Part shown: positions 2,996-32,710 of the stretch, in pieces
How the letters are laid out: the number at the start of each line of letters is the position of its first letter
Numbering within the stretch: position 1 is the stretch's first letter
Origin: Acidobacteriaceae bacterium
GTDB lineage: Bacteria > Acidobacteriota > Terriglobia > Terriglobales > Acidobacteriaceae
Length of the DNA stretch: 38,409 nt
NCBI GenBank assembly: GCA_025449575.1
Contig: JANWJB010000060.1
Coordinates: forward strand, 1 to 38,409
Direction of reading: 5' to 3'
Notes under the pieces: generated by a model
Told to the model about the DNA's origin: nothing
Databases searched by the model: none
What the model saw: only the letters and a program-made list of their open reading frames with translations
Made by a program: the position numbers and the translations under genes

Positions 2996-4120
2996 TCAGA
3001 GGTACCCGTAGACGCGATCCCCCAGCCATGCCGTCAGAGTAAGGGGCATGTAACGCCAAGTCCGTTTTGCCAGCGATATCGGGACAGGCTCCCTCTCTCG
3101 GGAGGAATGCTCAGTATTTGGAAAATCGGGATAGTAATACCGATATAAACGGACCCGTTCAGCACCCCACTTACTCTTGAACCGGGCCAGGTTATCATCA
3201 CCTTCCGGCACTTCTCCAAGGTCGAAGAATCGGTATCCTTCCAGGCTGGCGCTCTGAATGGCCTGCCAGAGTATCACGTCGTTCGGGCGAAGGTGCAAAT
3301 CACTGGATCCCGATGCACCGAAAGCATAAGTCACTGTATGTCCGAAGAAAAAGAACAAGTGACCCGCGATAATTCGGGAACCTGCATCCGCGTGCTGTTC
3401 AGCCAATAACAGCCGCATCATCCCCGTCGATCCCATTAGCTCCCACAGAGCCAAAAAAAAGCGATACGGCCGGGCAGGGACGAAATTGCGCCGCATTGTC
3501 TCCAGATAGAACCCGTACCAGACGCGAAAGTCCGTCTCCGCATCGGCCAGACGCGTGCGCACACCCATGGAGGCCGCTTTGTTGATCCCCCGACGAATAG
3601 CGCCGCGATCGTGGCTGTCGGGTATCTCATAGCTCTGCCCGGGACTTCCGGCAAGGCGCACAACATAACTCTCGCGCCAGGGCTTTCTCACGATTCCATC
3701 CATCCCGTCGCTCAGGTCCCCCCGCTGCGCTTTAATCTGCATTCGAAGACGTGGTTCCGCAATGGTTCTTTGCACCGCTTCGCGCAACAACTCCGCCGTC
3801 ACCGCTGGATCGACCGACAGTGGGCCGGCCAGCGGCGTCCGCGGCAGAGAAGACAGTCGCGGACCGGTGAGAGGGCGGCTGCCGCTCAAGGGGAAACCGC
3901 GAGTGTACAGCAGGGGCAGGATTCCCATTAGAATTCCATCGGGATCCTCGCACGCCAAGTACGCAGCCCGCTGCCGGTATTCGCGCTCGAGCGCCCTCAG
4001 CCATGCGGGATGGTGGTAGATCGTTCCCTCCGGGTGCTTTGTGACGAAAGCCTCCCAGCGGGGGTCCCCCCATGGACTGATCTCTACCACTCGCAATTTT
4101 GGAGAAGAGCTGATTTGCAT
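2996..4120 (-). CDS. FemAB-like GNAT-fold transferase (first of two)
   Basis: A 374-residue protein with the double GNAT fold of FemAB/GNAT_6 proteins. Diagnostic segments are the N-terminal block around TIYHHPAWLRALE and the C-terminal block LRPNDVILWQAIQ...FFDLGEV...LARFKSKWG. Family members transfer aminoacyl or acyl groups to cell-wall or polysaccharide substrates; several sit in exopolysaccharide loci linked to PEP-CTERM/XrtA systems. The ATG at 4120 is preferred over a TTG nine bases upstream because a GAGGGAG ribosome-binding site stands at the right distance for the ATG. It lies 46 bp downstream of the deacetylase-glycosyltransferase gene in the same direction, so co-transcription is likely. 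It is clearly related to the gene at 6379-7443, but the two differ enough to have separate substrates. The acceptor is unknown. Confidence 0.8.
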   Translation of the reverse strand: MQISSSPKLRVVEISPWGDPRWEAFVTKHPEGTIYHHPAWLRALEREYRQRAAYLACEDPDGILMGILPLLYTRGFPLSGSRPLTGPRLSSLPRTPLAGPLSVDPAVTAELLREAVQRTIAEPRLRMQIKAQRGDLSDGMDGIVRKPWRESYVVRLAGSPGQSYEIPDSHDRGAIRRGINKAASMGVRTRLADAETDFRVWYGFYLETMRRNFVPARPYRFFLALWELMGSTGMMRLLLAEQHADAGSRIIAGHLFFFFGHTVTYAFGASGSSDLHLRPNDVILWQAIQSASLEGYRFFDLGEVPEGDDNLARFKSKWGAERVRLYRYYYPDFPNTEHSSREREPVPISLAKRTWRYMPLTLTAWLGDRVYGYL

Positions 4121-4166
4121 GGAGAGCAAACTCCCTCACTTCATGGCTTTCAGGTACATCCGCCAA

Positions 4167-6317
4167 TCAGCGCTCAACGGCCGGACTCAGTTTTCCTTTC
4201 AAGTCATGGCCCTTGAATTGTACTGTGGACAGGCGATCGATAAGACCGAGATACTCCTTCCTCTTCTGATCCCACCCGTGGCGCTTGACATATTCCAGAC
4301 CGTGCCGGATCAGCGATTCCCGAAGAATCGGATCCCGAGCAACGTCATACATGGCTTCGGCCATCGCCGCACTGTCACCCGAGGGGAAGAATCGCACCGT
4401 CGCATCGTCAAAGTAGTAGCTGTCAATTTTCGTCCGCGAAACGACTACCGGGATCCCTTGGGACATAAACTCCATGATTTTCGTGCTGTAAGCCTCATTG
4501 CCGAACGAATCCGCCCGCTTGGGTACGACACCCAGATCCGCGTTGGCAATGATGTCCGCGATAGTATCGAGCGGCGCCAGATCGTTGAAAATCACCGAGC
4601 CCTCGAGCCCGAGTTCGCGTACTAGGTTCTTCAACGGCGCCGTATGCTTCATATCGTTGGATGCATAGAGATGAAATTCTGCATTGGGCACCCTCTTCTT
4701 GAACTCGGCGAAGGCTTTGATTCCGATATCCAATCCCTGATGCCACTGAAGGGAACCGGGGAACAGCACGATAAAGCGGCCATCCTGACGGGTGCGCTGA
4801 CGCTGTGCAAAGATCTCCGGATCGGGATGGTTGACGATAACGGAGCACTGATTCGGACGGATGGACCGCGCTGCCAGCTTCTCGGCCCACAGGTGATTGG
4901 AGACAATCACGTGGTCGACAAACCTGGCGGATAGCTTTTCCACGACGCGCAGCCCGGTGACATAGAAGCTTTTCAATGAGGATTTGAATTTATTGTTGAA
5001 CAGCTCAGGCGTCATGTCATGAATGTCGAGAATGAGACGCGCTCCCGTCATCTTCGGATACCAGGCTGCGAAGACCAGGAAATCCGGCATGTTATGAATG
5101 TGCACCACATCGTAGCGATTACGCGCGTGCAGCCGGGTGAGAGTGACGGACGACCGAAACAGGAAGCGCAGCAGCCGGGAGGCATAACTCCAGTGGCTCG
5201 ACTCATTATGGTCGCGACGCTGGATGTGGTGGATGGTAACTCCGTTCATCATGCTGATTTTCCGCCCGGTACTCAGCCCTTCTAACGCGATGACGTCGAC
5301 CATATCGCCGCGTCTAGCCAGCGCTTCCGCATAGCGGCGGACGCGGCCGTCGGTTTCGTATCCCGTATAAGCCACCATGCAAACGCGGCGGCGGGTGTTC
5401 CGGCACTCTGCCGGCAGCTTCGCGCAGTAATAGCGGGAGACCTCGCGCGGCAGGGCATGCCAGCACTTATCGGCATAGTTGTCGCGCACGTAGCTCAGGA
5501 ACTCCTCGTACAGGGCGACGGGGTACTCATCTCGGCCCGGAGATCCCTCCATGCACATGTAGTCGGGATGCGTATTGATTAGGGCCATCCCACCCTGCTC
5601 CACCAGCCAGTCCAATTTCTTTTTCCAGATGTCGATGCTCTGTTCGCGAAGAACCTTAAAGAGGTTGAAGTCTTGGACAAGCGTGTAGGGTAGCTCTACA
5701 AAACCCTTGGTGTTGGGAGCCTGGGTCCAGAAGGGAAAGATGGTGCGCATTCCATCGGACTCCGGCTCAAACGGATCGACATCGAACGTCGAGCAGTCAT
5801 ACTCGGAACCGAGCTCGTGCATCCATCCCAGGCGGTGCTGCATGAGCGGTGAACGAAAACCCACCGCACCCCACTCATTCATGATCTGTCGAATCTGTGC
5901 GGCTTTCGCGTGGAACTTCTTCCGCGAGCGGTAGAGCTTCCCGTCGTGCTTCAGCCCATGAACCCCGGCCTCGAACCCCGCGTCTTCGAGTATCCCGAGC
6001 AGCGCAGGCGTGACCTGGTATTTGCCGCGCGGAACGAAGTTGAAGCAGGCACGAAAACCGTGCTTCCGCGTGAGCTCGACCAGCTGCGGGACACGCTCAA
6101 ATCCCTTTTCCCCTTCTACGTCGTGAGTCAGAACCAGGCCAAATCGTTTCCCGTCCGGCCAACCCGGCCACCGCGGCGGAACTGCTGCAGAGCCCGCGTC
6201 GATCGGCCATACCTCAGCAAAGGCCCGGCGCCGGTGCTCGGCGCGCCAGCGGCGCCCGAACATGCGAATACGCCAGGGTAGAAGAGGCTTCACAAGGTAG
6301 TACGTTTTCATGAACAT
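4167..6317 (-). CDS. Fused polysaccharide deacetylase / GT4 glycosyltransferase
   Basis: A 716-residue two-domain protein. Residues about 55-290 are a NodB/polysaccharide-deacetylase-like domain with THD (64-66) and the metal His pair H120/H124 in GVHGLKHD, then GFRSP (153-157) and NTHPDY (H250). Residues about 310-716 are a family-4 glycosyltransferase (GT-B fold): DVVHIHNMPDF, LDIHDMTPELF, FPGSLQWHQGLD, and the nucleotide-sugar E-x7-E motif in FGNEAYSTKIMEFMSQG. The two activities are usually encoded by neighbouring genes. No frameshift or internal start separates them, so this looks like a genuine fusion. No signal peptide is present, pointing to the cytoplasm and to modification of a lipid-linked sugar during assembly. 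It sits between two FemAB-like genes (gaps of 61 and 46 bp), forming a likely three-gene operon. ATGs at 6317 and 6311 are both possible starts. Confidence 0.87.
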   Translation of the reverse strand: MFMKTYYLVKPLLPWRIRMFGRRWRAEHRRRAFAEVWPIDAGSAAVPPRWPGWPDGKRFGLVLTHDVEGEKGFERVPQLVELTRKHGFRACFNFVPRGKYQVTPALLGILEDAGFEAGVHGLKHDGKLYRSRKKFHAKAAQIRQIMNEWGAVGFRSPLMQHRLGWMHELGSEYDCSTFDVDPFEPESDGMRTIFPFWTQAPNTKGFVELPYTLVQDFNLFKVLREQSIDIWKKKLDWLVEQGGMALINTHPDYMCMEGSPGRDEYPVALYEEFLSYVRDNYADKCWHALPREVSRYYCAKLPAECRNTRRRVCMVAYTGYETDGRVRRYAEALARRGDMVDVIALEGLSTGRKISMMNGVTIHHIQRRDHNESSHWSYASRLLRFLFRSSVTLTRLHARNRYDVVHIHNMPDFLVFAAWYPKMTGARLILDIHDMTPELFNNKFKSSLKSFYVTGLRVVEKLSARFVDHVIVSNHLWAEKLAARSIRPNQCSVIVNHPDPEIFAQRQRTRQDGRFIVLFPGSLQWHQGLDIGIKAFAEFKKRVPNAEFHLYASNDMKHTAPLKNLVRELGLEGSVIFNDLAPLDTIADIIANADLGVVPKRADSFGNEAYSTKIMEFMSQGIPVVVSRTKIDSYYFDDATVRFFPSGDSAAMAEAMYDVARDPILRESLIRHGLEYVKRHGWDQKRKEYLGLIDRLSTVQFKGHDLKGKLSPAVER

Positions 6318-6378
6318 GGGGACAGGTGGCTCCGGTTAAAAAGAAGCAGATTGCGAAGCTTTTTACACTCCACCAGTT

Positions 6379-7443
6379 TCAACCCATGTGCCGATAGAGA
6401 GTATTGGACGCAAGTAGCAGAACCCAGTTCGGGCTGGCCGCAATCATGTGATTTGCCAATCTTTTTTGCCCTACGGGCCGCTTTTTTGCCTCCGCGGCAG
6501 GATATTGCCAATAAGTAAGCGGAGCAGGCACGCTGCCCCAGTGTTCTTTGAAGACGCTCAGACCTGGATCCTGGAGATCGGAGCGTCCCATGTCGAGTTC
6601 ATTCTGCCCATGGGCTTTCGCTTCCTGAATAGCTTGCCAAAACAGCATCGGGGTGCCGCCATATTTATTGGCGCTGGAGTCGCTGCAGCCATACTTATAC
6701 ACCATTGTCCGGCGGTGCGAGATGGTGACGATACTCGCGACTGCGATGCCATCTTTCCTTGCGATGCGTACCTTCAGGCTAGGGCCGAAGGCGGCGATGA
6801 GCGCCCGAAACCACTGCAAAGGCTGGGGAGGCAGGCCATGGCGGCGGCGCGTCATCGTCATGAGCCGATAGAAGTCGCCCAGCTGCGCTTCGGAATTTCC
6901 TTCTTCGTATACGAGATTCTCGCGTTCGGCGCGGCGTATCTTCCGCTGGATGCAGTCCTTGTGAAAGCTCCGAAGGAGCTGATCGGCGGGAGCGGTCAGG
7001 TCCAAGCGGTGGAGAACGGCGCCGCCTTTGAGCTGGAAATCTCGCACCTCAGTGCATGGCGCCGTGTGCGGCCGGACCTCCATCCGCTTGTAGCGCCCCT
7101 GTTCGATTGCGCGCCGTGCATGCTTGAGGACCGCGTCCAGCGCCTCCGGAGCATTCATCAGCGGCTCGCAATGATCCGAAAACGGTAGCGATACCAGCCG
7201 CGACCCGGTCAGCCAGGAGCGAACCTCGCAGAACGCAATGCCATCCGTCAGCGGGGCGTCCGGCGGACAGGTCGTGAGGACCAGCGGCCGGTATCCGTAG
7301 GTTGCCTTCAGGGCACTAAGCCACGCGCATGTATGGAACACCGATGCTTGCGAATGCGCAGTCACCAAAGCCGGCCACCGCGAGTCGGAGAGAGGGTCAA
7401 GCTCATAAACCTCTCCAATCGTCCCGGAACCTCTGCCGTCCAT
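6379..7443 (-). CDS. FemAB-like GNAT-fold transferase (second of two)
   Basis: A 354-residue paralogue of the FemAB-like protein at 2996-4120 and the first gene of the three-gene run. Matching landmarks are the N-terminal ASVFHTCAWLSALKATYG block, the basic helix CIQRKIRRAERE, and the C-terminal GGTPMLFWQAIQEAK...LDMGRSDLQD...FKEHWG block that forms the second GNAT fold. The family transfers aminoacyl or acyl groups to envelope polymers; no substrate can be read from the sequence. The ATG at 7443 has a GGGAGAGAGAG ribosome-binding site. It ends 61 bp before the deacetylase-glycosyltransferase, supporting a common function in building or decorating a polysaccharide. It has no signal peptide and no membrane segment, so it should act in the cytoplasm. 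Confidence 0.8.
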   Translation of the reverse strand: MDGRGSGTIGEVYELDPLSDSRWPALVTAHSQASVFHTCAWLSALKATYGYRPLVLTTCPPDAPLTDGIAFCEVRSWLTGSRLVSLPFSDHCEPLMNAPEALDAVLKHARRAIEQGRYKRMEVRPHTAPCTEVRDFQLKGGAVLHRLDLTAPADQLLRSFHKDCIQRKIRRAERENLVYEEGNSEAQLGDFYRLMTMTRRRHGLPPQPLQWFRALIAAFGPSLKVRIARKDGIAVASIVTISHRRTMVYKYGCSDSSANKYGGTPMLFWQAIQEAKAHGQNELDMGRSDLQDPGLSVFKEHWGSVPAPLTYWQYPAAEAKKRPVGQKRLANHMIAASPNWVLLLASNTLYRHMG

Positions 7444-7824
7444 AGTGACTCTCTCTCCCGATCGGTATTGGCTCAGTCAAGCCTCTAGGAGGCGCCGAGT
7501 TCGTCTTCCGGTGCGTCTGCCCGCGCTTTTACGAACACCTTTCTTCTCTGCAGGAACGTGCGACAAACCTTCTGACGCCGAACGCTCGCTGATCGATGGT
7601 TGTGAACCAGCCTAACAGCCGGGTTTTGGCTTGTCCAAAAGGGCGCATTCTCCGGAATCTCTTCGAACGACGGCTTATCATGCCGCCGGGATCCGCACTC
7701 TGCTCACCCAGCTCGGCGGCGCCTATCTTACCTGCCGCACAGCGGGGACGGGGCGCGCATCCAGCTCCAAAAGTCACCGGAATGTCATCGCCCCAGAAGA
7801 TCACGTCATTAATTCAGATCGGCC
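7444..7824. other. Intergenic stretch, no gene seen
   Basis: About 380 bases between otsA and the polysaccharide operon, both on the minus strand. It must hold the promoter of the operon starting at 7443 and the end of the otsBA transcript, but I could not pick out a convincing -35/-10 pair or terminator. Open frames on both strands have no recognisable content. Confidence 0.35.
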
Positions 7825-9258
7825 TTAGCTCGCCGCGGGGCTTTTCTTGATGGCGGCGAAGAAGCGATCGCGCCACTTGAGAATGTTGGCGGTCCGAATC
7901 TGATTCTGCAGGCGCAACATGCGCCGGTGGCGCTCCTCGGCAGGCATCTCCAGAGCCTTCTTGATCGCCGCCGCCACGCCGTCTTCGTCGTAGGGATTGA
8001 CCAGCAGCGCGCCGTTGCGAAGCTCGGACGCCGCGCCGGCAAACTCGCTCAAGATGAGCACGCCGTCGGTCTGCGCGCGCGAGGCGCAATATTCCTTGGC
8101 TACCAGGTTCATCCCATCTTTAAGCGGAGTGATGAGTGCGACCTCCGCCGCGTTATATACCGCGATCAGCTCTTCGCGCGGGATGGAGCGATGGATGTAG
8201 TTAATGGGGATCCATTCCGGCTCGCCAAATTCTCCATTGATTTCGGCGACCAGCCGCTCTACTTCATTCTTCAAGTCCTGATAGTGAGGGATGCTCTCGC
8301 GGCTGGGCACAACGATTTGGATGAGTGTCACTCGGCGATGAAATTGGGGATAGTTGCGCAGCAGAGAACGAAAAGCCTTCAGGCGTTCAGGGATGCCCTT
8401 GGTGTAATCCATGCGATCCACGCCCAGGGCAATCTGCATTCCGGAGTGATGGGCGCGAATCTCTTCCACGCGCTGCTGCACGGGAGCCGACGCGGCAGCT
8501 TCGGAGAACTTGGGGTAGTCGATGCTGATGGGCAGAAAGCGGATGTAGGTCTGGCGCCGCTCGCTGACCACGGTATGGCCTTCCTCGCCTCCGGCGATCT
8601 TGATGGACGGCACAAAACTGCGCAGGCAGCCCACGAAGTTACGCTCATCGCGCCGGGTTTGCAGTCCAATTAGATCGTGTTCCAGCAGCCCTTCCAGAAT
8701 TTCGCGCCGCCACGGCAATTTCTCGAAGATGTCGGGCGGGGGAAAAGGAATGTGCAGGAAAAAGGCCAAGCGGGCTTCGGGCCGGTGAGCGCGCAGCGTT
8801 CTTCCCACCTGCATCAGGTGATAGTCGTGGATCCAGATCAGCGTATCCGGGCCGGCAGCGTTCTCCGCCGCCTTGGCAAATTTTCGATTGACGTCCTGAT
8901 AGGAGCGCCAATACCTGGGATCGAAGTTGCAGCGGGATTGCAGATCGTGGAAGAGCGGCCAGAGAACCTCATTCGAGAAGCCCTGGTAGAAATACTGCTG
9001 CTCCTCCGCGCTCAAGTAAACCGAGGCATATCGATGGTTCTTCGGGTGCGCCGCTCCCGCCATCAATTTGTGCACCTCCGGCGAATCGTAGCCTCCCGGC
9101 GAGCCCACCCAAACCCCTCCCTGATCTTCCAGCAGTGGCTCCAGAGCGCTCACGAGACCGCCGCTACTGGTTTGCAGCCGCAGCTTGCCCCTCTCGTACT
9201 GGCAGGTGACGGGAATGCGGTTCGAAACAACAACCAAGCCGGGCGGTTTTGTCTTCAT
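7825..9258 (-). CDS. otsA: Trehalose-6-phosphate synthase
   Basis: A GT20-family enzyme of 477 residues that joins UDP-glucose (or another NDP-glucose) and glucose-6-phosphate to trehalose-6-phosphate in the cytoplasm, the first step of osmoprotectant trehalose synthesis. Family blocks are plain: VVVSNRIPV at the N-terminus, [52 protein letters not shown], and [20 protein letters not shown] with NPYD. The start is set at the ATG at 9258: it has an AGGAGAAAGGAC ribosome-binding site, and the downstream sequence begins the conserved VVVSNR strand. A longer open frame would only add residues overlapping otsB. Its ATG overlaps the otsB stop in an ATGA tetranucleotide, so translation of the two genes is probably coupled. 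Confidence 0.96.
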
Positions 9259-10112
9259 GAGTCCTTTCTCCTGGAGCGGGCTCCTGCCGCTTGCACCCAC
9301 GAATCTAGAAATTCCAACAGTTCTTCCGGCGGCTTCAGCCAGAAGCGGGCCGAGGACTCTCGCGGCTCGGTGCGAACCAGGATAGAGAGAGCGCGATCGC
9401 CGGCCGCGGCGAACGCATCCTCATCCGTCAGATCGTCGCCGAGGTACGCGGCGATGATGCCGGGCTCCTCTTCTGCGAGAATTTGCTCTACCGCGACATC
9501 CTTGCCGGCATGTTTCGATCGCAGCTCGATGCCGCCGTCAAACTCCAACAATCGCAGATCGCTTCGCTCCCCCTGCTGTCGATAGAGCGTCCGGACCGCG
9601 GAGTTTATTCGGTCGCGCTCTTGCGGGTCGAGTCCGCGCCAGTGAATGGCCAGGGACGCCGGCTTCGCCTCCACTGTCCCGGAAAGGCCCAACCGCGCAA
9701 CCTCTTCCTTCACCGCGTCCATGAGTCTGCGCTCCTCTTCGCCTACTGGACGCAATGAGTAGGAGTCGTCGCTGCGCAGTCGCTCCTGCCCATGATCTCC
9801 CCAGATCTCCGCCCGCTGGCCAATCCCCGGCACACATGTGAGAAGGCCGAGCAACTCGCGCGCAGGGCGGCCGGAGACCAGCACTAGGCGCACGCTCTCC
9901 AGAGCGGCGAGCCGGGCAAGCCGCTCCGGAACTCCGGGGTAAGGATAGGCCTCCAAGCGCTCCTTGCGAAAGGGCGCCAGCGTTCCGTCATAATCCAGCA
10001 TCAGCACGGAGCGGCCGGACGCACCAATGCGAGACCACAAATCGGACTCTCGCGGCCAGCGTGGAGGCGCGTCCGCCATTTTCCGTTTTTCGGATGACTC
10101 GATCTCGCGCAT
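9255..10112 (-). CDS. otsB: Trehalose-6-phosphate phosphatase
   Basis: A 285-residue HAD-superfamily phosphatase that removes phosphate from trehalose-6-phosphate to give trehalose. The nucleophile motif is LMLDYDGTLAP, with D40 and D42. SGRPARELLG supplies motif II, and YLGDDLTDEDAFA gives the acidic Mg-binding motif IV. Length fits bacterial OtsB. It is the first gene of a two-gene operon with otsA, overlapping it by four bases. The ATG at 10112 is used; an internal ATG at codon 12 is possible and would remove a charged, poorly conserved tail. Neither has a strong ribosome-binding site. It is transcribed divergently from trpC across a 199-bp region. Confidence 0.95.
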   Translation of the reverse strand: MREIESSEKRKMADAPPRWPRESDLWSRIGASGRSVLMLDYDGTLAPFRKERLEAYPYPGVPERLARLAALESVRLVLVSGRPARELLGLLTCVPGIGQRAEIWGDHGQERLRSDDSYSLRPVGEEERRLMDAVKEEVARLGLSGTVEAKPASLAIHWRGLDPQERDRINSAVRTLYRQQGERSDLRLLEFDGGIELRSKHAGKDVAVEQILAEEEPGIIAAYLGDDLTDEDAFAAAGDRALSILVRTEPRESSARFWLKPPEELLEFLDSWVQAAGARSRRKDS

Positions 10113-14603: not shown

Positions 14604-15758
14604 ATGGTCAAGCCCGGTCTTCTTACCTTCAAGCGCCCCCAACAGCTCGCACTCTTGCTGCTGCTCTTGTTATGCGCGCAGAGCCTTTGGGTGATCCATC
14701 GTCAAACATTGACGAAACGGGATTACGATTTTGCCCGCTGCGGCCGGGAGATGTGGGAGAAGCCCTCCCCGCTGGCCGGCTACTTTACCACCTGCGGAAA
14801 CATACAGGATGGAACTCTGGGGTATCGCGTTGCCGGGCTGCCGCTCACGATTCAGCGCATCATCGCCGGACAATCCCAAGACACCTCGACGTGGGAGATG
14901 CGGCATGAGTTGAGTTATGTGCTTCTGTTGATGCACGGAGCCTTTCTGCTGGTGGGTCTGGCTCTAGGGGCTGCGCTTTGGTGGGTTACCCGTCGCCTTT
15001 ATGGGAATACCGGCGGCTTCATTGCGCTGGCCCTCTATTGTTTTGCTCCGCCGGTCATTCACGCCTGCACTTACCCCAACAATGAGATTCTGGCCGCATT
15101 TGGGTTGTTCGCTGCCGTCTATACGGCGGTGGGAGTCGCGCATTCTCTGCATGGGCCCAAGGGAAAAGGACGCATGCGGATCCTGCTGCTGATTCTGGCG
15201 CTTGGCTTTACCGCCTCGGCGCACGTGTCGGCCTTCATGATCGCGATCGCTCTGTCGGTGATCTTCATGGGCTACCTCGCGCAAGGGCATCGCGCGGCGG
15301 TGATCCCGATCGTGGCGCTGGTCGCGGGGGGCGCGCTGGTGCTTGTCTTCGCCTCCTACACTTTTAACGCTGACGCCTACAGTTACTTCTTCCGCAGCGG
15401 GGCCGGTTTTATGTGGCTTTCCTTCGGGGCGGCTCGCATCTGGGTCCTCGACCCGCGCCACGCCGCAATGGTAATTGCGGCCGCCGCTGCCCTGTTCTTC
15501 TACATCCTCCACCGGCGCTCTCGCTATTTCGGGAACACCATGCCGCTGCTGATTGCTCTGCTGCTCTTTTTTCTGCTGACCACGGGCATATCGAGCGAGC
15601 CCACGCTCTGGGCTCTGCCGTTTCTCCTGGCATTTATCGCCGGGGTCTTCGCCGATGTGCTGGAGAGCCGTCACCGCCGTGTCTTCCTGTGGGCCACCGG
15701 CTCGATACTGCTGCTGCAAGTCGCGCTCAGCATCGTCTCTCTGCCCACACTGGGGTGA
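14604..15758 (+). CDS. Polytopic membrane protein, possibly GT-C glycosyltransferase-like
   Basis: A 384-residue integral membrane protein that I cannot assign to a named family with confidence. It opens with a hydrophobic segment (LALLLLLLLCAQS), followed by an extracytoplasmic-looking loop with DYDFARCGREMW and a second Cys in FTTCGNI, then about nine more hydrophobic segments separated by short basic loops. The layout of an acidic loop after the first membrane helix followed by many helices resembles GT-C/PMT-type glycosyltransferases or their inactive relatives. It is a single gene between ruvB (divergent) and gyrA (same strand, 324 bp downstream, own promoter). The start ATG is fixed by the adjacent hydrophobic segment. 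Confidence 0.65.
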   Translation: MVKPGLLTFKRPQQLALLLLLLLCAQSLWVIHRQTLTKRDYDFARCGREMWEKPSPLAGYFTTCGNIQDGTLGYRVAGLPLTIQRIIAGQSQDTSTWEMRHELSYVLLLMHGAFLLVGLALGAALWWVTRRLYGNTGGFIALALYCFAPPVIHACTYPNNEILAAFGLFAAVYTAVGVAHSLHGPKGKGRMRILLLILALGFTASAHVSAFMIAIALSVIFMGYLAQGHRAAVIPIVALVAGGALVLVFASYTFNADAYSYFFRSGAGFMWLSFGAARIWVLDPRHAAMVIAAAAALFFYILHRRSRYFGNTMPLLIALLLFFLLTTGISSEPTLWALPFLLAFIAGVFADVLESRHRRVFLWATGSILLLQVALSIVSLPTLG

Positions 15759-20488: not shown

Positions 20489-21559
20489 CTAAGGCAGCCG
20501 GGTCGCCAACAGCGGGGTGGTGTGGTGGCGGCGGCGCGACCTCCGCGCCGGGGCAGGAGCGTGGGAGCGGGCCTGCGGATGCGCCGGAGTTTGGGTCGAG
20601 GCCTGCGCCACGGAGATGACCCGTTCTCCCCCTCCTGCCGGGTGATAAGACTCATAAACCGAAATATGGAAGCAGGCTTGATGGAACTCCTCCTCCACGT
20701 CCAGCCTGCCCTGCGATTGCAGGGGCAGGAGATAAGCCCGCAGCCACCCGATTTCCGAGCGCGTTAATCCCTTCTTGCTGATGTCCACGGCCTCCCCGGT
20801 GAGGTGGGGAGACCGAATCTCGCCTTCTGCCGGGGCCGCGTTGCCGTTCACCCGTAACAGATGACGTTGGTACTGAACCGTACGCACAGCCGAATCCACC
20901 TTGAGCGGGGCGCCGAAGCGTGCATAGAATGCTTGCGCCAGATCGGTGAGGAAGCGCGCGGTCCAGGGCCGGCAATAGCGCCGGTCAGTGTCCAGTCGCG
21001 GGTCCACGGTCAGTCTCCTGCTCTGTGGTAGCGCCACCAGCGCGCCGCTCTGCGTCATGGCATCGAGCATTTTGTCGTCGTCAACGCGCTTCAAACCCTC
21101 CTCATCCGCCCGTTGGTTCTGGCGCAAGAGGGATTCGCGCGATCCGCGGAGGGGTGGAAGCGACAGAAATGTTTTCAGAGGTCGCTGAGCAAGTTCTGTG
21201 TTGACGGTAGGGCGCTCGGTATCGAGATCTGCGGAGCCCCGTGCAACGCGAGTGGAAGGCGAATGCGCGGTGCGATGCGCGCGAGCCGTGAGACGCGTGC
21301 GGGCGGTGCGATGCGCGCGAGAGGATCGGTGGGCGCGGGCAACATGGGAAGGATGCGCCGTCCCATGCGCCGCGGCATGAGCGTGGTTGCTTCTGGCGCG
21401 GTGCGTTCTCGATGGCCGTGTGTTGTGCGCTCTGGATGGACTATGGCGCCGATGCGCGGCCCAAGCCGGAGCGGTGCAGAGAAAGAGCGCCACCGCAATC
21501 ACGGCGAGGAAAGCGTTCGCCGCGCGGCGGAAATCTCCGGACTGGATGCAATCGGACAT
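20489..21559 (-). CDS. Secreted DUF5715/M15-like protein with a His-Arg-Ala-rich tract
   Basis: A protein of 356 residues. After a Sec-type signal (hydrophobic residues about 14-34, cleavage near PAWAA) comes a tract of about 70 residues (36-107) made almost only of His, Arg, Ala, Ser and Thr with repeated AHR/ARAHR units. A folded C-terminal domain then carries SPHLTGEAVDI (His252, Asp259) and EEEFHQACFHISVY (Glu291, His298). That spacing matches the Zn ligands and catalytic Glu of LAS/M15 peptidases (VanY-like D,D-carboxypeptidases), and I recognise the overall type as DUF5715. A role in periplasmic peptidoglycan trimming is inferred. The ATG at 21559 is chosen over the longer frame because the signal peptide follows it; the longer frame would overlap fabF. 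Confidence 0.75.
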   Translation of the reverse strand: MSDCIQSGDFRRAANAFLAVIAVALFLCTAPAWAAHRRHSPSRAHNTRPSRTHRARSNHAHAAAHGTAHPSHVARAHRSSRAHRTARTRLTARAHRTAHSPSTRVARGSADLDTERPTVNTELAQRPLKTFLSLPPLRGSRESLLRQNQRADEEGLKRVDDDKMLDAMTQSGALVALPQSRRLTVDPRLDTDRRYCRPWTARFLTDLAQAFYARFGAPLKVDSAVRTVQYQRHLLRVNGNAAPAEGEIRSPHLTGEAVDISKKGLTRSEIGWLRAYLLPLQSQGRLDVEEEFHQACFHISVYESYHPAGGGERVISVAQASTQTPAHPQARSHAPAPARRSRRRHHTTPLLATRLP

Positions 21560-21719
21560 GAGTGGGTGCGGAGCGAAGCGGCAAGATTTCCCGGATTTGC
21601 TAATTGTAGCAATCGCGGAAGAAAATCTCTGCCGGAAATCTGAGAGTAGTCCTGCCGTGGCCGAAGATGAAGTGGCGACTTTGATTCCGCCACTCCGTTT
21701 TCCTCTGCCGGTGTTCCGG

Positions 21720-22967
<1,248 letters not shown>

Positions 22968-22968
22968 A

Positions 22969-23214
22969 CTACTTGCCGCCTTTCGCGTTCTTCTCGATGT
23001 AGTCGGTCGCGTCCTTCACGGTTTTAATCTTCTCAGCGTCTTCATCCGGAATCTCCAGATCGAAAGCCTCCTCGAACTGCATCACCAGTTCGACCACATC
23101 GAGCGAGTCCGCACCCAGGTCCTCTTGAAAGGACGCACTGGGAGTGACCTCTGCTTCGTCCACCTGAAGCTGCTCAACAATGATCTGCTTTACCTTTTCC
23201 TCCACTGCTGCCAT
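22969..23214 (-). CDS. acpP: Acyl carrier protein
   Basis: An 81-residue acidic four-helix protein that carries acyl chains on a 4'-phosphopantetheine arm. The attachment site is Ser37 in [10 protein letters not shown], the canonical DSL motif. [16 protein letters not shown] forms helix II-III and [12 protein letters not shown] the last helix. The ATG at 23214 has a strong AGGAGATAGG ribosome-binding site, suiting an abundant protein. It is transcribed directly before fabF with a single base between stop and start. Confidence 0.98.
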
Positions 23215-30913: not shown

Positions 30914-32710
30914 CTACGGCAGGTAATAGCGGAACGATGTCCAGAACATATTATTGGTTGACTGCGGAGTGGCTCCAATACCCGACCAGATGTTGCGCTG
31001 GAAGTAGGCGTACTGAAATCCCTGGCGCAGCCGTCCCTTCGATCCGCTGTAGAAGTTGAACCAGTAGCCGGCCGTAAATTCCTGCACGTCTTTCGTGTCG
31101 GCGGTGCAGTTGGGTTGCGAAGAGGGCGTATACCCGGTGTTGCCGCTCCCCGGAGCCGGTTCGGTGTCGCAGCCGGTCTCTACGTTGAAGGGCGATCCAT
31201 AGCCTACCGCTTTCCCCGGCGCGGAGATAAAGTACCTGCGCCCGGCATAATCGCCTCCGTAGTTGGCGTAGAGATCCAGACGAGGCGTGACGTGGAACTC
31301 CAGGGTGCTGAGCGCGGAGAAACCGCGGACCAGTGCCAGTTGCCCGGCGGGATTTACCGTGGTGTCGGCGATCCCGCTGCTCCCGTAACGGCCGATACCG
31401 TCTCCCCACAATCCCTTCAGGCCGACATCGAGATGTTTGTGCAGCGTGGGAACACGCAGGCTGCCGCCGATCCCTCCGCCGGTAGTGATGTTGTTGTAGG
31501 CTCCCGCGGAGGATGGCGTAGACGAGGTGTCGTTGGGATAAACGCGTTCCCGGAAGAAGCGCCCAATGCCGAAGATCTCATAATGCCCCCAGCCGGGTTC
31601 CAGAGCGAGTTTCGCGACAAAATCGGGGGCCACGTTGGAGGCGTAGCTTGCAGTGGAGTTGAAGAGGCCTCCTCCCGTGCCCGACTGTCCCACCAGGAAG
31701 TTGTCGGGCAGGTTGTGGCCGGCGACACTCGGAATCTGGGCATTCTCCACTGACGCTGCCAGCGAGAGCTTGCTGCCAAAATCCTTGCTCACGCGAAAGC
31801 CATACTGCCGCGCCCAAACAAAGCCCGCCGTGTACTGCGGATCGATCACGGAGGGAAGGATCTCGCTTTTGTTCTGCGTCAACTTGGTGGTTTCCGTCGC
31901 CAAAGACCACATCTGGCCGCCCGTAAAGGTCATGCTGCCCCAGTGCGCTTGAGCCCAGAGCTGGCGCTGGCGCAGTGTGTAGCTGTTGCTCTGGTTGTTG
32001 TTGGAGGTGATGCCGGAGCTCAGCCAGTCCGCCTCATAATATCCTTGCAGCGTGAGGTGGTCGCTTACTTTGCCTATGGCATCGAGCGCTATGCGAGACT
32101 GACGGCCCGACCCGTAGAACTCTGAATAATGGCCCTGGGGCGCGTCGTTGAGCGGGATGCCGGTAAAGGCGGTGTTGAGTCCGCCGCCGGTCGCCCGCTG
32201 CCGGTACACGGTTTCCGCTGCCAGAAAGCTGCCGGCGGGCGAGAGCGTAATGCCCTTGTAGTGAATGACGTCGGGATTGGCAGCCTCCTTTTGAATCTTG
32301 GCTTGCTCTGCCGGAATCATCGTTGCCAGGGACGCGTTGGTGGTCTGCAGATCGGTGACGGTCCCCTTGAGATTGGCGAGAGTTTGACGGCTCGCATTGG
32401 AGGCTGCAGCCTGCTGCGCGTTCTCTTCCTTCGCCTCGTTGGCCGCCGCCTGGGCATCCGCCGCTGCCTGTTTCGCCTGCTGCAGTTGCCGATCTCGATC
32501 GGCGAGCTGTTGCCTTAGTTCCTGGATCTGGCCCTCGAGATCCCCCCGCAGAGCCTCTATCTGGCTGGCGACAGAGGGTTCTCTAGAAGCCGTGCGCGCC
32601 TGAGTTTGTTTGTTCCGCGCCGATTTTCTGGCGGACCTCGTTTGGGCATGCGCGCCAGTCATTGCCGAGATAAGCACCAGCGCCGCCAGCGTCTCAAAAC
32701 AATATTTCAT
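30914..32710 (-). CDS. Outer-membrane porin with N-terminal coiled coil (DcaP-like)
   Basis: A 598-residue outer-membrane protein. A Sec signal (cleavage near AHA, residue 22) and a basic stretch precede a coiled coil at about 47-128, rich in Gln, Ala, Glu and Leu (IEALRGDLEGQIQELRQQL). The remainder alternates short hydrophobic-aromatic strands and Gly/Asn/Ser-rich loops typical of a 16-strand-type barrel, and it ends in an aromatic strand (MFWTSFRYYLP). Trimeric porins with a periplasmic coiled coil (DcaP group) are known from Acinetobacter; assignment here is by architecture. Substrates are unknown, possibly small organic acids or sugars. The ATG at 32710 has a GAGAGG box. It has its own terminator, a -10-like box and a palindrome upstream. 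Confidence 0.8.
   Translation of the reverse strand: MKYCFETLAALVLISAMTGAHAQTRSARKSARNKQTQARTASREPSVASQIEALRGDLEGQIQELRQQLADRDRQLQQAKQAAADAQAAANEAKEENAQQAAASNASRQTLANLKGTVTDLQTTNASLATMIPAEQAKIQKEAANPDVIHYKGITLSPAGSFLAAETVYRQRATGGGLNTAFTGIPLNDAPQGHYSEFYGSGRQSRIALDAIGKVSDHLTLQGYYEADWLSSGITSNNNQSNSYTLRQRQLWAQAHWGSMTFTGGQMWSLATETTKLTQNKSEILPSVIDPQYTAGFVWARQYGFRVSKDFGSKLSLAASVENAQIPSVAGHNLPDNFLVGQSGTGGGLFNSTASYASNVAPDFVAKLALEPGWGHYEIFGIGRFFRERVYPNDTSSTPSSAGAYNNITTGGGIGGSLRVPTLHKHLDVGLKGLWGDGIGRYGSSGIADTTVNPAGQLALVRGFSALSTLEFHVTPRLDLYANYGGDYAGRRYFISAPGKAVGYGSPFNVETGCDTEPAPGSGNTGYTPSSQPNCTADTKDVQEFTAGYWFNFYSGSKGRLRQGFQYAYFQRNIWSGIGATPQSTNNMFWTSFRYYLP

Follow-up and report, generated by a model that had tools for sequence, protein, structure and literature searches.

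A deacetylase–glycosyltransferase fusion between two FemAB-like proteins in an acidobacterial exopolysaccharide locus

The fusion protein and its FemAB-like neighbours

Here, we analysed a window of 38,409 nucleotides from an Acidobacteriaceae bacterium (contig JANWJB010000060.1), in which three closely spaced genes on the minus strand encode a polysaccharide deacetylase fused to a GT4 glycosyltransferase and, on either side of it, a FemAB-like protein. The window spans the full length of contig C60 in an acidobacterial metagenome-assembled genome (MAG; G000; 3.03 Mb in 233 contigs, 83% complete, 0.66% contamination); L-numbers denote loci, G-numbers genomes and C-numbers contigs in our comparisons. 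FemAB-like protein A (6379–7443, 354 residues, ATG start) is the first gene of the operon and lies upstream of the fusion gene (4167–6317, 716 residues, ATG start), which is followed downstream by FemAB-like protein B (2996–4129, 377 residues from a TTG at 4129, or starting at an ATG at 4120). Protein A and the fusion are separated by 61 bp, the fusion and protein B by 37 or 46 bp for the TTG and ATG start, respectively. An earlier sequence-only reading of the window had described the three genes at these coordinates, and its 46-bp gap holds with the ATG at 4120.

The fusion is encoded in a single open frame without internal stops. Its residues 1 to about 300 (5418–6317, minus strand; N-terminal helices at residues 2–12 and 15–32) form a NodB/CE4-type deacetylase domain, and residues from about 306 to 700 a retaining GT4 glycosyltransferase with GT-B fold (domain at residues 306–716; 4167–5402, minus strand). 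Pfam matches to the GT4 families PF13579, PF13692 and PF00534 cover residues 325–672 with E-values down to 3e-19. The deacetylase was assigned because its motifs are conserved in 53 aligned copies and because it matches the solved deacetylase 3rxz (E 9e-6). These motifs (T64-H-D-V-E68, H120-xxx-H124, R155, D174-x-S176 and H250-P-D-Y253) comprise an HxxxH metal site, an acidic motif 1 and the remaining NodB motifs. Residues H65, D66, E68, H120, H124, R155, D174, S176, D179, E208, H250 and D252 are near-invariant across the aligned copies, with D66, R155 and D174 found in 53/53, H120/H124 and H250 in 52/53 and E68 in 51/53. The glycosyltransferase half combines the GT-B fold with the E-x7-E motif of GT4 enzymes (E608-x7-E616; E616 in 53/53 copies, E608 in 46/53) and carries the motifs H526-Q-G and H406-x-H408; H406, H408, D431, H526, K600 and E616 are near-invariant in the same alignment. 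Since the active-site residues are conserved, both halves look active.

Modelling of the full-length protein gave a mean pLDDT of 89.3 and a pTM of 0.87. Structural alignment of the full fusion with VIA-align covered the glycosyltransferase half alone, the deacetylase fold being assigned by sequence and motifs. The nearest solved folds of the glycosyltransferase half are MshA (Z 36.4, rmsd 3.0, 363 residues), BshA (Z 36, rmsd 3.1, 355 residues), PglA and sucrose-phosphate synthase. In the fusion and the two FemAB-like proteins, no strongly hydrophobic segment of the membrane type was detected.

Both outer genes match the Pfam families Acetyltransf_6 and FemAB, and a profile match to the FemX type (E 3e-19) goes together with the tandem GNAT fold characteristic of FemX. 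Protein A, modelled in this fold with a pLDDT of 92.8, found its best Foldseek matches in FemX (E 3e-17, TM 0.68–0.71) and in the tRNA-dependent enzymes Sbb17/Sba18, the latter in streptothrisamine-bound structures. Its K299 aligns with the catalytic Lys305 of FemX, the sole reactive residue near the substrate in that enzyme (PMC12945691), and the lysine is present in 38/38 FemABs. R211 of FemX, which binds UDP-MurNAc-pentapeptide, is not kept, with Q or P aligned at this position (Q207 region). As K299 is invariant while R211 is lost, the alignment speaks for aminoacyl transfer onto another acceptor, and the proteins would be Fem-like enzymes acting on such an acceptor rather than peptidoglycan FemX. 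Towards the model TIGR03019 (pepcterm_femAB) they score 132 and 98 bits against a curated cut-off of 260, and are thus related to this family without being members. In protein B, E replaces R right after the conserved G286.

The sequence-only reading had taken the FemAB gene to be doubled. A recent tandem duplication is ruled out by the 26.7% identity between proteins A and B, by the fact that each has its own counterpart in the related locus L026, and by a tree of 67 FemAB sequences. In this tree, protein A groups with the upstream copy of L026 (support 100/100), to which it is 78% identical, among acidobacterial copies that stand beside a 34-member clade of FemABs whose genes lie upstream of fusions from Verrucomicrobiota, Desulfobacterota and Nitrospirota. 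Protein B falls with the downstream copies of L025 and L026, near those of L040, L042 and L052, the deeper join being weak (85/72). By this sequence evidence A and B are old, separate paralogue classes; protein A belongs with the acidobacterial members of the common fusion-adjacent class, and we propose a VimA-like role for it. No FemAB homologue beyond these two was found in the MAG.

Recurrence of the fusion and its genomic surroundings

A scan of 84,980 species genomes yielded 80 loci. One frame matches both domains in 67 of them (among these L025, where it is broken by a frameshift), the two domains are encoded by adjacent genes in six, and the glycosyltransferase stands alone in five; in the remaining two, L049 and L091, the fusion was missed by the caller of open reading frames (ORFs) and covered by tblastn. 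Besides that of the window, there are 51 single-frame fusions of 690–760 residues, hosted by Acidobacteriota, Verrucomicrobiota, Nitrospirota, Desulfobacterota and others, and the aligned ones show 44–78% identity. These 51 copies rule out a frameshift or chimera and bear out the proposal that two activities reside in one chain: homologues sought by the same two-domain order turned out to be mostly fused, rather than separate genes joined here by a sequencing error. Within its own phylum the fusion is patchy, with a full-length match in 3/297 sampled genomes including that of the window, and it was not found in the two other genomes of the window's own genus that were searched. A fusion in the reverse order, glycosyltransferase before deacetylase, occupies one 872-residue frame in G026 (L005:1504-4122, on G026:C262), directly downstream of an asparagine-synthase-like gene, and is an independent joining of the two functions. 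That the same joining occurs repeatedly suggests that the two work together, and we regard it as strong sequence evidence for cooperation between deacetylase and glycosyltransferase. No published deacetylase–GT4 fusion was found in the literature searched, the scope of which excluded most subscription papers.

Further along the reverse-order contig (L108, G026:C262:7393-11295), the fusion is followed by several successive ORFs of unknown type, which share 60–68% identity with the post-fusion ORFs of L022. In G309 (L112:6227-8260) the same deacetylase is joined to a GT-B-like domain of the DUF354 family (PF04007). One neighbouring gene is, on visual inspection, similar to UDP-GlcNAc 2-epimerase, and another is a lookalike of the C5-epimerase/GH-like neighbours of other loci; open frames resembling this deacetylase–DUF354 fusion also occur in G277 and G285. 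As the copy in L024 lies together with a FemAB and an exosortase gene on the 46-kb plasmid pF-183-1 (AP025253.1) of a Bryobacterales isolate, the module can sit on a plasmid. A phage or plasmid origin was rejected although this copy exists: no relative was found among viral contigs, and the plasmid search returned low-identity matches to the glycosyltransferase domain, none over 80% of the query.

The sequence-only reading had also associated FemAB genes with the fusion, and this association recurs. Counting genes within 5 kb, in loci with enough flanking sequence only, FemAB accompanies 29/36 fusions, 2/5 split pairs and 0/4 loci with the glycosyltransferase alone. Taken together, 31/41 loci with a deacetylase–glycosyltransferase pair have a FemAB neighbour, a difference from the four glycosyltransferase-only loci with a Fisher p of 0.007.

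The closest named relatives of the operon belong to Acidobacteriaceae MAGs (L025 and L026). L026 has the identical gene order of FemAB, fusion, FemAB, phosphoesterase and acyltransferase, with identities of 78, 77, 62, 77 and 70%, respectively. By this synteny, two further minus-strand genes of the window are members of the operon: a YaeI/LpxG-like metallophosphoesterase (1875–2810; 77–79% identity and same place in L025 and L026) and a membrane acyltransferase of the Acyl_transf_3 type (103–1377; about 70% identity, again in the same place), which contains hydrophobic segments. The acyltransferase gene stops 102 bases before the left contig end, so that the operon reaches the edge of C60. What had been called a compact operon is hence a fragment of a larger exopolysaccharide (EPS) locus cut by the contig end. 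It is true that the window holds no exosortase, Wzx or Wzy gene, as had been remarked, but this is in part an artefact, since window and contig coincide, the operon is cut at the left contig end, and Wzx- and Wzy-like genes lie on another contig of the same MAG, C166, so that their absence from the window carries no meaning.

Clustering of the neighbours across loci recovered EPS genes, namely glycosyltransferases of family GT2, Wzz, sugar-1-phosphate transferase, Gfo/Idh, DegT, Wzy-like, AsnB, hexapeptide acetyltransferase and a second deacetylase, the last in 23/48 loci. In L044 the order is phosphoglycosyltransferase (PGT), Gfo/Idh, hexapeptide acetyltransferase, DegT, FemAB, fusion, second deacetylase and two GT2 genes, then a partial ORF with an AsnB-like N-terminus. 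L090 is co-linear with it, but here deacetylase and glycosyltransferase are split and AsnB is complete. The AsnB proteins of L090 and L026 have their best match, below cut-off, in TIGR03108, where Veith et al. also placed WbpS (PMC7468200). Contig C166 carries PGT, Gfo/Idh, hexapeptide acetyltransferase, DegT, second deacetylase, Wzx-like and Wzy-like genes, the last two being 76% and about 75% identical to their L026 counterparts. A clustering of the Wbp/Vim type, in which deacetylase, FemAB-like protein and glycosyltransferase adjoin WbpB/D/E-like enzymes, is thus seen in L044 and L090; in this MAG the corresponding gene set is spread over two separate contigs, C60 and C166, which may be neighbours on the chromosome. 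Between the Wzx-like and the second deacetylase genes lie two proteins of 563 and 535 residues that match nothing in Pfam or NCBIfam (L106:5337-7028 and 7223-8830; G000:C166).

Exosortase is present in 37/40 fusion genomes compared to 46/199 sampled Acidobacteriota. Within this phylum the ratio is 10/12 fusion genomes against the same 46/199 (p 4e-5), and exosortase genes lie inside some of the fusion loci. No exosortase (PF09721) was found in the 83% complete MAG studied here, which together with the L026 genome makes up the two acidobacterial exceptions; both carry the five-gene block. As the background is a single phylum and genome size was uncontrolled, we treat this link as an association only.

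A proposed aminoacyl-sugar pathway and its alternatives

What might such a set of enzymes accomplish? With moderate confidence, we propose that the three genes serve to finish the sugar in a Wzx/Wzy-type EPS locus that follows Wbp/Vim-like logic, with VimE- and VimF-like functions fused. The fusion would probably be an enzyme pair that transfers a sugar and takes off its acetyl group, and the flanking enzymes would probably add an amino acid to the exposed amine. On the cytoplasmic side, the GT4 half would transfer an N-acetylated sugar to the growing lipid-linked glycan; this sugar is probably an N-acetylhexosamine (HexNAc) or a 2,3-diacetamido sugar, for whose synthesis other parts of the locus would provide the Gfo/Idh, DegT and hexapeptide enzymes. 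An N-acetyl group would then be removed by the deacetylase domain of the fusion. Protein A would move an aminoacyl group from aminoacyl-tRNA to the freed amine by FemX-like chemistry involving the conserved lysine, and protein B may perform the same reaction on another amine or with another donor. Fusion would couple transfer to deacetylation and thereby confine formation of the modified residue to the glycan. We infer the identity of the sugar, the acceptor, the order of steps, the tRNA donor and the cytoplasmic location, the last from the lack of a strongly hydrophobic segment in all three proteins. The sequence of transfer, de-N-acetylation and aminoacylation, already suggested by the sequence-only reading, agrees best with the invariant FemX lysine and with the VimA–VimE–VimF precedent; the interpretation offered there is thus partly supported.

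This precedent comes from Porphyromonas, where UDP-GlcNAc(3NAc)A is synthesised by the Wbp enzymes. VimE has been proposed to take off an acetyl group, and exchange of vimA between species showed that VimA attaches Ser or Gly (PMC7468200). The acid is amidated by WbpS, an enzyme of the AsnB type, and secreted proteins carry the product in amide linkage at their C-terminus; a glycosyltransferase gene, vimF, is located downstream of vimE (PMC7468200). The systems of Porphyromonas gingivalis and Tannerella forsythia share with the present module a CE4 deacetylase with a glycosyltransferase gene downstream of it, a GNAT protein with an additional match to TIGR03019, the combination of Gfo/Idh, aminotransferase and hexapeptide acetyltransferase and, in related loci, an AsnB-type amidotransferase. 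Here, by contrast, deacetylase and glycosyltransferase form one chain, a second, divergent FemAB is present, and the setting is an EPS-type Wzx/Wzy locus in Acidobacteriota. By this analogy, the module looks like a known kind of aminoacyl-sugar pathway in fused form, with two FemAB classes and in hosts other than Bacteroidota.

Other systems resemble it in part. In the Caulobacter holdfast, the deacetylase HfsH and the FemAB/GNAT protein HfsK are proposed to act in one pathway, with an unknown acyl group (PMC5362036); in Hirschia baltica, HfsH alters adhesion while deletion of HfsK has no effect (PMC8449245). The likeness lies in a deacetylase and a Fem-like transferase proposed to act on an exposed amine of EPS precursors (PMC5362036, PMC8449245), and the difference in hfsK being located outside the hfs locus and in the lack of a fusion. 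A Fem-like enzyme that aminoacylates an amino sugar is known from the BD-12 pathway, where Orf11 acts on the intermediate streptothrisamine (PMC10156733, PMC12945691); FemX/FemABX and Orf11/Sbb17 share with the FemABs studied here the fold and the conserved catalytic Lys305, and FemX differs in the acceptor residue R211. In EPS loci of the XrtA/PEP-CTERM type the same kinds of protein adjoin (deacetylase TIGR03006, FemAB TIGR03019, glycosyltransferase TIGR04063/TIGR03088 and amidotransferase TIGR03108), and the Rubrivivax PEP-CTERM locus has nodB, femA and a glycosyltransferase gene as separate neighbours (PMC3684757). The scores obtained here are, however, far below the curated cut-offs (53 versus 442 bits for the glycosyltransferase, 22.6 versus 276 for the deacetylase model TIGR03006), and this MAG lacks a detectable exosortase. 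In the synthesis of mycothiol and bacillithiol (MshA–MshB–MshC and BshA–BshB–BshC), a GT4 enzyme transfers a HexNAc, which is de-N-acetylated and then joined to an amino acid. The order of steps is the same, and the solved folds closest to the glycosyltransferase half include MshA and BshA, but the products there are small molecules, the deacetylases are of the LmbE rather than the NodB type, and no Fem-like transferase takes part.

Several points weigh against the proposed pathway. The Pfam match to Polysacc_deac_1 is weak (residues 73–150, E 0.004, under the Pfam cut-off), and motif 1 reads THDVE instead of TFDD, the nearest solved deacetylase 3rxz having TFDVD. The best match of the Gfo/Idh protein, UDP-GlcNAc 3-dehydrogenase, is below cut-off, no orthologue of the AsnB or the GT2b of L026 was found in this MAG, and 10/41 testable loci have no FemAB within 5 kb. 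The likeness to VimA, VimE and VimF is one of enzyme kinds and gene arrangement. Moreover, the donors used by the GNAT fold are versatile, and the donor of HfsK was left unpredicted by its authors (PMC5362036). The FemABs could also be acyl-CoA (or acyl-ACP) dependent N-acyltransferases, as thought possible for HfsK, yielding a polymer with non-acetyl N-acyl groups instead of amino acids. The Acetyltransf_6 match, the tandem GNAT acetyltransferases lower in the fold list and the joint holdfast pathway of HfsK and HfsH would fit this, whereas FemX and tRNA-dependent peptide synthases, not acetyl-CoA enzymes, head the fold and profile matches, the FemX Lys305 is invariant, and exchange of VimA switches Ser to Gly in the product (PMC7468200); we consider acyl-CoA dependence possible but rather unlikely. 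More doubtful still is that the deacetylase simply leaves a free positive amine, as in deacetylated poly-N-acetylglucosamine (PNAG) and holdfast, while the FemABs modify a different residue in the polymer and the genes are neighbours merely because all are EPS genes. Such a function would account for the FemAB-less loci, the frequent second deacetylase and the phenotypes in Hirschia baltica, but it explains poorly why FemAB is tied to the deacetylase–glycosyltransferase pair and missing near the four testable glycosyltransferase-only loci, or why the three genes stand side by side in Rubrivivax. For chance neighbours or a frameshift artefact nothing speaks beyond the MAG status of the genome; with 51 other single-frame copies, the synteny with L025 and L026 and the reverse-order fusion, this explanation is refuted and deserves practically no credence.

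An additional purpose, compatible with the aminoacyl-sugar pathway favoured above, would be to supply a linking sugar as acceptor for exosortase, an idea raised for exosortase systems by Veith et al. (PMC7468200); in this MAG, a sortase-like enzyme or a missed exosortase would then use it. The enrichment of exosortase in fusion genomes, the exosortase genes within fusion loci and the best matches of FemABs and AsnB to XrtA-associated models, albeit below cut-offs, point in this direction. On the other hand, this MAG and the L026 genome, both perhaps incomplete, have none, and the co-occurrence, measured against a background of Acidobacteriota, may only reflect large EPS-rich genomes. We thus regard this purpose as a tentative suggestion. 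Equally speculative is its broader form, in which the fused VimE–VimF-like enzyme and the FemABs are a widespread module making an aminoacylated amino-sugar acceptor for exosortase (and sortase-like) anchoring, by analogy to the FemABX-made peptide bridges that serve as sortase acceptors, with an acidobacterial branch using the sugar without exosortase.

If the proposed pathway is true, the placing of amino acids on sugars, described for two oral Bacteroidota, extends to Acidobacteriota, Verrucomicrobiota, Nitrospirota, Desulfobacterota and others, and a single-chain enzyme allows transfer and deacetylation to be assayed jointly. Given the exosortase genes of 37/40 fusion genomes, the question of what exosortase attaches proteins to would become directly testable and, should the sugar indeed be the acceptor, a so far unknown exosortase acceptor would be revealed.

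Other features of the window

Directly upstream of the operon and on the same strand, the window encodes an OtsA/OtsB-like trehalose-6-phosphate synthase and phosphatase (7825–10112), where L026 has AsnB and GT2. Three long ORFs without Pfam match, at 14604–15758 (+), 21387–23027 (+) and 30914–32710 (−), are possibly spurious frames or uncharacterised proteins.

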